From the NCBI GenBank assembly GCA_905233365.1, contig CAJODT010000007.1, positions 1 to 50,343 on the forward strand: a DNA stretch of 50,343 nt, given 5' to 3'. Shown piece after piece: positions 24,262 to 37,535 of the stretch. This DNA is from an uncultured Succiniclasticum sp. (GTDB lineage Bacteria; Bacillota; Negativicutes; Acidaminococcales; Acidaminococcaceae). Below the pieces are notes generated by a model. It was given only the letters and a program-made list of their open reading frames with translations, made no database searches and was not told where the DNA came from. Position 1 is the stretch's first letter. Every line of letters starts with the position of its first letter. A program made the translations under genes and the position numbers.

Positions 24262-24373
24262 TTACCTGCCGGATTTATATATGGAAATTCTGTAACTCCA
24301 TTGACATAATCCACTGTTTATTTCTATAATTAAATACCAGATATACATAATGACAAAATTAAAAAATAGGAAG

Positions 24374-24536
24374 GAAAAGACATGAGCAAAACGTCGGGAA
24401 CGATTGCGTCATTCCATGAGATGACATGAGCCGCCCGTGGCGAGACTGTCTGAGGGGCGAAGCCCCGAGTTTCGAAGCCACAGGCGAATGAGTCCATGGA
24501 ATAGCAATCGTGTACGGTTTTGCGAAGTCTTTTCCG
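24374..24536 (+). repeat. 163-bp fold-back interspersed repeat, copy 1
   Basis: Gapless match, about 88% by eye, to the reverse complement of 37100-37262; nested complementary arms from GAAAAGA/TCTTTTC to GGGGC-GAA-GCCCC. Confidence 0.9.
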
Positions 24537-32293: not shown

Positions 32294-32510
32294 CCGGTTA
32301 AGGTTCGGTTAAGATTCCGTTTTTTGTGTGTGATTATAGTATAGTGGCTTTGGGAAAAAACGTCAAGACAAACTGAATTTCGCCAAAAACAGGTTCGTCA
32401 AATGCTGCCCTGTGTGTTACGAATTAAACACAAGATAAAAAGACGGTAAGATAGTGCCGTGAAACGCTTGAAATATTCAATCCGGTGTGTTACACTTAAT
32501 GAATAAAAAC

Positions 32511-32770
32511 AATCCGGGTCTGTGGTTGAAAGTCGATGCCAGTTGCAGGCGAAACGATCCACGTAAGCAGTAAAATTACTGTGAGCACGGTGCAGCTTAG
32601 AGGTAAGTCCTGCCGTACGGAATCCGGCAGCCAGAGTCTGACCGCAAGGTTCAGACCTGGAGCCGGCCGTTCCTGTACGAGAGGAGCAGTAGTGGGGAGC
32701 AGATGCTTAGGAGCGAACCTTCCAGCAGGCGGGTGTGGGGGCGAAAACCAGGTCAGCCGGGGCGTTTTTA
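32511..32770 (+). ncRNA. Candidate structured RNA or leader upstream of the amino-acid SBP operon
   Basis: Closing helix CCGG..CTG.TGGTT / AACCA..CAG.CCGG around internal hairpins CTGCCG/CGGCAG and CCAG.GTCTGA.CC-GCAA-GG.TCAGAC.CTGG; followed by GCGTTTTTA. Confidence 0.5.
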
Positions 32771-36334: not shown

Positions 36335-37068
36335 CATCACCACAGGATATTATAAAAATCACCGGACTGAAGAAGAGCTTCGGCGACCTGCACGTGCTGA
36401 AAGGCATCGACCTGCACATAAAAGAAAAGGAAGTTGTAGTCATCATCGGGCCTTCCGGCAGCGGCAAGTCCACCCTGCTGCGTTGCATCAATTACCTGGA
36501 AGAGCCTTCCGGTGGAGAGATTGTTTTTGACAATATCCCCTTAAACGGGGCAGCGAATATCAATGAGGTCCGCAAGGAAGTGGGCATGGTGTTCCAGCGG
36601 TTCAATCTGTTCCCCCACATGACGGTGCTGGAAAACCTGGTGCTGGCTCCCATGAAGGTGCGGAAGGTCAGCCGGAAGGAAGCAGAAGAACTGGCCATGA
36701 CCTACCTGAAAAAAGTCGGACTGGCGGAGAAAGCGAATAATTATCCGGACCAGCTTTCCGGCGGGCAGCAGCAGCGTGTGGCTATTGCCCGCGCTTTGTG
36801 CATGAAACCCAAGGCCATGCTGTTTGACGAACCCACTTCGGCCCTGGACCCGGAAATGATCAACGAAGTGCTGGAAGTTATGAAGCAGCTGGCCAAAGAA
36901 GGCATGACCATGGTGGTGGTGACCCACGAAATGGGCTTTGCCAAGGAAGTGGGCGACCGGGTGCTGTTCGTGGACGGCGGCTATATTGTGGAAGAGGGGA
37001 CGCCGGAGCAGGTGTTCGACCATCCGCAAAACCCAAGAACCCAGAGCTTCCTGTCCAAGATATTGTAA
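36331..37068 (+). CDS. Polar amino acid ABC transporter ATP-binding protein (GlnQ-like)
   Basis: [43 protein letters not shown]. Confidence 0.94.
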
Positions 37069-37099
37069 AAGATTAGTTTTCGCAAAGATGTAGCAGCGG

Positions 37100-37262
37100 C
37101 GGAAAAGACCTCGCAAAACCGTCCGCGTTTGTTATTTCATGGACTTATTCGCCTGTGGCTTCGAAACTCGGAGCTTCGCTCCTCAGACAGTCTCGCCACG
37201 GCCGGCTCATTTCGTCTCATGAAATTACGCAAACGCTCCCGATGTTTTGCTCAGTTCTTTTC
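37100..37262 (-). repeat. 163-bp fold-back interspersed repeat, copy 2
   Basis: Reverse-complement copy of 24374-24536, about 88% identical by eye, no gaps. Confidence 0.9.
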
Positions 37263-37535
37263 TGCCGTTGCTTTTCTTTCGAAAAATATGGTTAATACAG
37301 TTGTAACGAAATTTGCAATTTTGCACAAAAAAGTGACAAAAGTTAGAAATCTTACTTTGTATACAGGAATAATACGCAGCATGTCGAATGATACTACAAC
37401 GGACAAAGGGGACGGAACCCTGCGGACAGGACAGGCAAAGAGGAGGCTTTACAGATCGGTTACAGAACGGGCCGCGGTTCCGGATCCGGAGCCTGTAATA
37501 ACCAAGTGACCTTGGACGTTCAAGGAGGACTCAGT

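Follow-up and report, generated by a model that had tools for sequence, protein, structure and literature searches.

For decades, palindromic repeats of bacteria such as ERIC, YPAL and BOX have been described without agreement on how they move. YPAL elements are placed behind stop codons, with targets that overlap terminator-like sequences, and ERIC is associated with a TA target duplication. YPAL, palindromic elements of Yersinia of about 168 bp, were reportedly described by De Gregorio et al. in J Bacteriol in 2006. Their length and structure are listed in PMC2267715 and their copy numbers in PMC2847712.

The DNA studied here, referred to as the window, is a stretch of 50,343 nucleotides from an uncultured Succiniclasticum sp. 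and carries two copies of a hairpin element. Copy 1 (163 nt; 24374–24536, + strand) lies in the 5' leader of the DUF1015-serC unit and scores 179.5 bits with the covariance model, while copy 2 (37100–37262, − strand; 175.3 bits) lies inside a terminator-like stem 3' of an ABC-transporter ATPase gene. A preliminary description had placed both copies at these coordinates in opposite orientation with about 20 mismatches, which BLASTN bore out with 88% identity over positions 1–163 and about 20 differences on opposite strands; the stem differences it had reported between the copies are real. Its view that each copy folds into a single extended hairpin was likewise upheld, with folding energies of −72.6 kcal/mol for copy 1 and −62.3 kcal/mol for copy 2 (z = −7.0 and −5.0) and not one of 200 shuffled sequences as stable as the window copies. 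The apical signature of copy 1, ACTGTCTGAG-GGGCGAAGCCC-CGAGTTTCG (24445–24474, + strand), consists of a C-GAA-G tip and a TGTYT bulge with facing GA/GA; that of copy 2 is at 37162–37191 on the − strand.

As had also been described, copy 1 stands just upstream of the DUF1015-serC RBS, its end 21 nt before the DUF1015 ATG (24558), and copy 2 stands between the ABC ATPase gene (end at 37068) and hpf, as assigned with Pfam. A promoter-like TTGACA-N18-TATAAT (24301–24330, + strand) that matches the sigma-70 consensus at 12/12 positions precedes copy 1, which thus sits between a perfect consensus promoter and the RBS and, because of this site, is very probably transcribed as a 5'-leader hairpin. A similar TTGACA..TATAAT pair is found upstream of DUF1015 in several congeners. 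In relatives the spot of copy 1 is either empty or taken up by nested composites, a 61-nt mini or a fold-back unrelated to the element. Fold-backs at this spot upstream of DUF1015 in two relatives (G003 and G006; L069 and L066) have a common core, TGAATAAGCG..CGCTATGAA, and differing outer stems.

By its predicted fold, copy 2 has a terminator-type foot, which copy 1 lacks. The left outer arm of copy 2, AGCAGCGG (37092–37099, + strand), is outside the element and pairs with 37263–37272; from the DNA fold and the orthologous terminators it is assigned to the foot of the host terminator. The right outer arm is followed by a T-rich tail (37263–37281, + strand; sequence and DNA fold). At orthologous positions, relatives have either a plain terminator or the element as a full copy, mini or micro remnant. 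The window that contains copy 2 and hpf also contains a raiA RNA (RF03072, 183.8 bits; 32509–32765, + strand).

The genome-wide BLASTN search that the preliminary description had proposed returned many dispersed copies: at least 19 of full length in the source genome (a 2.34 Mb draft), plus split, partial and mini copies, and more in the genus. In total, 148 distinct full-length copies were collected from Succiniclasticum, where the element is present in 11 of 14 genomes. Copies are 161–163 nt long, have arms paired end to end and contain no ORF. BLASTN found no match in the sampled genomes of other genera of the family, order and class, and when 85,462 species were scanned for exact occurrences of 36 nt of the apical core, with a few positions left free, only Succiniclasticum-type genomes (Acidaminococcaceae, rumen) were retrieved, S. 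ruminis DSM 9236 included. The Rfam search, also proposed earlier, gave no match above the gathering score or at E up to 1, so that a known RNA family was rejected; an origin from a phage or plasmid was rejected likewise, as neither collection held similar DNA. Recent transposition is rare, since even the most alike copies within one genome are only 92–99% identical. Internally deleted minis and nested composites occur, and in a 225-nt variant and others a different fold-back replaces the apical part, one of these holding a further element. Three congeners have fold-backs of another family, unrelated to this one (AGGGAAACGCTGATTAA...TTAATCAGCGTTTCCCT, about 160–210 nt, likewise variable at the apex), at L166:11972–12130, L174:8432–8645, L217:6190–6353, L226:7892–8050 and L205:16909–17066.

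Beyond the conserved part, the flanks differ from copy to copy and are nevertheless mutually complementary for about 15 nt. Pairing is 86% at the first outer position and as far as about position 20 is mostly higher than after shuffling; at least nine of 12 outer positions are paired in 81 of the 148 copies, compared with 8.5 expected by chance (maximum 14). An A-tract precedes the element in 68% of cases (18% in the control) and a T-tract follows it in 64% (28%). A paired foot together with an A/T-tract is present in 60/148 copies, 25 of them GC-rich. The paired flanks, the A-tract before and the T-tract after show that many copies are placed inside the stem of bidirectional intrinsic terminators just behind stop codons (median distance 30 nt), element and terminator forming one continuous hairpin. 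A filled site (G013:L192) and its empty counterpart (G005:L276) share the same outer stem: the empty site is a terminator, AAACCGGG-TTTTGTAAT...ATTACAA-CCCCGGTTT-ATTTATTTTT, and in the other genome the element lies within that same terminator. At the site of G000:L002, relatives have plain terminators or other element-in-terminator versions. As regards gene context (34 convergent, 66 tandem and 8 divergent, against 112/745/151), positions between convergent genes are over-represented (odds ratio 3.7, p = 1e-7) and those between divergent genes slightly under-represented (p = 0.03).

Of 227 comparisons of orthologous positions, 153 gave a filled, 46 an empty and 28 a partial or other state. Both orientations of the element relative to the host flanks occur at 14 of 29 multi-genome sites, a count that leaves out G011:L246:4092, a self-antisense match, and hence is 14 and not 15. 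Six of the sites (11 flipped pairs) have inverted orthologs that are more similar to one another than to any other copy. For instance, G005:L267 and G013:L194 are 97–98% identical after flipping and 61% unflipped, with flanks at 87–89%. These six sites are best read as inversion in place, judging by reciprocal similarity; at the remaining two-orientation sites, independent insertion into a favoured site is possible. Exact inverted words inside copies have a median length of 8 nt and reach at most 16 nt, which is probably too short for RecA-type recombination between the arms. Assembly error was rejected as the source of the inversions, as k-mers of at least 21 should resolve inverted words of this length. 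A literature search on in-place inversion returned nothing relevant.

For the analysis of covariation the 148 distinct full-length copies were aligned, and RNAalifold gave a consensus of one hairpin with 43 pairs and heavy two-sided variation (e.g. a pair that is A-T in 77 and T-A in 51 copies). Changes were counted on a FastTree tree with parsimony states, using random partners and slid registers as controls. Joint changes from one Watson–Crick pair to another amounted to 164 branch events, against a random-partner mean of about 6 (maximum 25) and 1–6 in slid registers, and 27 of the 43 pairs had at least two such events. A second count, on 43 diverse copies, agreed and found 95.3% of cells paired and 184 double-changed cells versus 52 after shuffling (0/500). 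Because tree-based counting removes shared ancestry, these patterns strongly support a constraint on stem pairing and not an effect of subfamily ancestry. The preliminary description had argued for selection on RNA or cruciform structure rather than a decaying MITE. The constraint on the stems stands, and pairing is kept across the 148 copies without the erosion of a decaying MITE, but the opposition to a MITE was a false choice in view of the MITE-like anatomy. Terminator function was rejected as the cause of stem selection, since hairpin integrity is equal in terminator-like and other copies (0.960 vs 0.959).

A triloop ends 131 of the 134 readable copies and is of the C-GNA-G type in 120/134, mostly as GCGAAGC; beneath the tip there is a 5-nt bulge, TGTYT, and GA faces GA. 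The minihairpin d(GCGNAGC) is extraordinarily stable as DNA, and its RNA counterpart is not known to be so. Part of the literature makes use of GCGAAGC as an extra-stable DNA mini-hairpin. A sister genus (G053) gave 16 weak, repeated covariance-model matches (E from 4e-5) that agree in the apex and have other arms. The pattern ACTGTYTGAG-N(3-24)-CGAGTTYCG was found in 23 of 381 Negativicutes genomes and 9 of 102 genera, on hairpins with unrelated arms, and in two other sampled genomes of the phylum; the backward control gave zero matches. Copies inspected in other genera were mostly dispersed long hairpins, and viral contigs yielded seven matches, mostly due to chance. The apex is thus conserved more deeply than the arms, as would be expected for a recognition site. 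A text search of papers for the apical sequence led only to unrelated work. In several Negativicutes (G486, G494 and G694; L353, L356, L359, L370, L371 and L375–L378) another hairpin, of the type CTTTTGGTTACTTTTGGGGCRATGCCAAAAGTAAC, comes after the apical one. Clustered or back-to-back copies in opposite orientation, about 200 nt to 4 kb apart, occur at G319:C28 (40070–44181) and at G486:C14 and C90.

We interpret the element as a family of mobile DNA hairpins that extends through the genus, is non-autonomous and of fold-back, MITE-like type, and is acted on by a putative enzyme, and assign this reading a probability of about 0.58. It is the simplest account because it covers the lodging in terminators, the nesting, the inversion, the presence/absence polymorphism and the DNA-type tip. 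A putative recombinase or transposase would act on the folded, probably single-stranded, DNA hairpin and would recognise the conserved apex, i.e. the C-GNA-G minihairpin plus the TGTYT/GA..GA internal loop. The hairpin may be inserted, excised and re-inserted at hairpin tips, and this would account for its lodging in terminators as well as for its inversion. Insertion of this kind would be tolerated because a hairpin within a hairpin keeps the terminator stem and the U-tract together. An effect on the host, if any, would concern transcript ends and, for copy 1, the DUF1015-serC leader.

An unlikely alternative, though the one that survives best, is a structured RNA, such as a 3'-UTR stabiliser, a terminator cassette or a protein-binding RNA with a kink-turn-like apex, spread and kept by selection on transcripts. 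The position of copy 1 between a consensus promoter and an RBS would suit this explanation, as would the 3' placement with a U-tract and the apical internal loop, since TGTYT/GA..GA would as RNA resemble a kink-turn with a long bulge. Compensation moreover proceeds stepwise and prefers G-T (G-U in RNA) over A-C intermediates, by 109:40 overall in orthologous pairs (binomial tests; pairs not all independent). This excess is, however, not reversed in copies opposed to the neighbouring gene (34:19 in the same and 36:25 in the opposite orientation); the strand preference goes with the frame of the element itself and thus argues against selection on the host transcript, albeit with small numbers per class. 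Orientation to genes is unbiased (35 same, 31 opposite), the element is inverted at orthologous sites and absent in 46 of the 227 comparisons, and the tip is a C-GNA-G triloop rather than a GNRA or UNCG loop. Taken together, the GNA triloop typical of DNA, the lack of orientation bias, the in-situ inversion and the equal integrity inside and outside terminators make the evidence lean towards a DNA hairpin over a classic RNA family. An RNA role, especially for copy 1, may exist.

A purely mutational cause, in which template switching or arm-to-arm conversion corrects the palindrome without selection, is improbable. The very high rate of double changes, the uniform integrity of the hairpins and the pairing even of the site-specific outer flanks would be in keeping with it, yet close orthologs differ mainly by single-sided changes. 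At 95% identity or more, double changes numbered just 3, whereas single changes led to G-T in 16 cases, to A-C in 4 and to other mismatches in 11; doubles come with divergence and make up 43% of changes at 80–90% identity. Compensation is therefore stepwise, through G-T wobble intermediates, against instant correction by template switching. Correction would also hardly favour G-T over A-C or leave the asymmetric bulges and internal loops conserved as they are. Equally improbable is a relic of inactive MITEs, i.e. past spread followed by decay of copies carried along where 3' regions permit, the covariation being only apparent and due to subfamily ancestry: dispersed non-coding copies, minis and fragments and a convergent-gene bias like that of pneumococcal BOX/RUP/SPRITE (PMC3049150) would fit, but covariation persists after tree-based counting and 95–96% of stem cells still pair.

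As for the source of mobility of the proposed DNA hairpin, the element shows features of MITEs (under 500 bp, inverted-repeat arms, lack of an ORF, dispersed copies and filled/empty polymorphism). No autonomous longer copy with the same ends was found in the 2.6 Mb sampled or in the element's own genome, the drafts being incomplete. Y1 (IS200/RAYT) transposases were rejected as the driver, as Y1_Tnp is lacking in four copy-bearing genomes (G000, G001, G002 and G003) and present in the element-free G009. An IS110/IS1111 DEDD transposase was rejected too, since of the 14 congeners just G000 and G008 have one that scores above the cut-off. Direct repeats of 5–10 nt, not constant in length, are present at only a few insertion sites, and the flanks are palindromic. 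S. ruminis DSM 9236 (G005) contains about 30 fragments of a Y1 (IS200-type) transposase, most at contig ends, which suggests that an IS200-like element in high copy number interrupts the assembly.

The occurrence of the apex in other genera invites a wider and more tentative proposal, which we consider doubtful: a system extending over the Negativicutes, in which an enzyme would read the conserved apex and insert, excise and invert whole DNA hairpins at hairpin tips, mainly those of transcription terminators, leaving the arms free to diverge. If hairpins do insert into hairpins, this would explain why terminators survive the entry of mobile DNA. The Succiniclasticum family allows element-free, filled, shortened, nested and inverted states to be compared at orthologous sites, including those of the cultured S. 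ruminis DSM 9236, and the conserved apex offers a tangible starting point in the search for its recognition protein.

Mobile hairpins without an assigned enzyme and with conserved stems are also represented by the repetitive and double hairpin elements of mitochondria (PMC2800124); these are organellar, much shorter and variable in their loops, whereas in the Succiniclasticum element the loops are conserved and the stems covary. With SPRITE, RUP and BOX of pneumococcus (PMC3049150) the element shares the convergent-gene bias, the 3' location, the resemblance to terminators and the mutual nesting, and differs from them as a GC-balanced 163-nt hairpin that is lodged in an already existing terminator stem and inverts where it sits. 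ERIC, a 127-bp imperfect palindrome of enterobacteria, is similar in occurring in both orientations, in having short variants and internal insertions and in forming RNA hairpins; the Succiniclasticum element is longer, lodged in terminators and equipped with a C-GNA-G apex, and the TA target duplication of ERIC was not seen for it. YPAL is alike in size, in its single long hairpin and as a dispersed intergenic MITE-like repeat, but its host is unrelated and the likeness is one of description. YPAL is not known to invert in situ, to have a deeply conserved apical signature or to be flanked by paired sequences specific to each site. The element hence resembles YPAL and ERIC in kind and, as the comparison is by description, is set beside rather than within either family.
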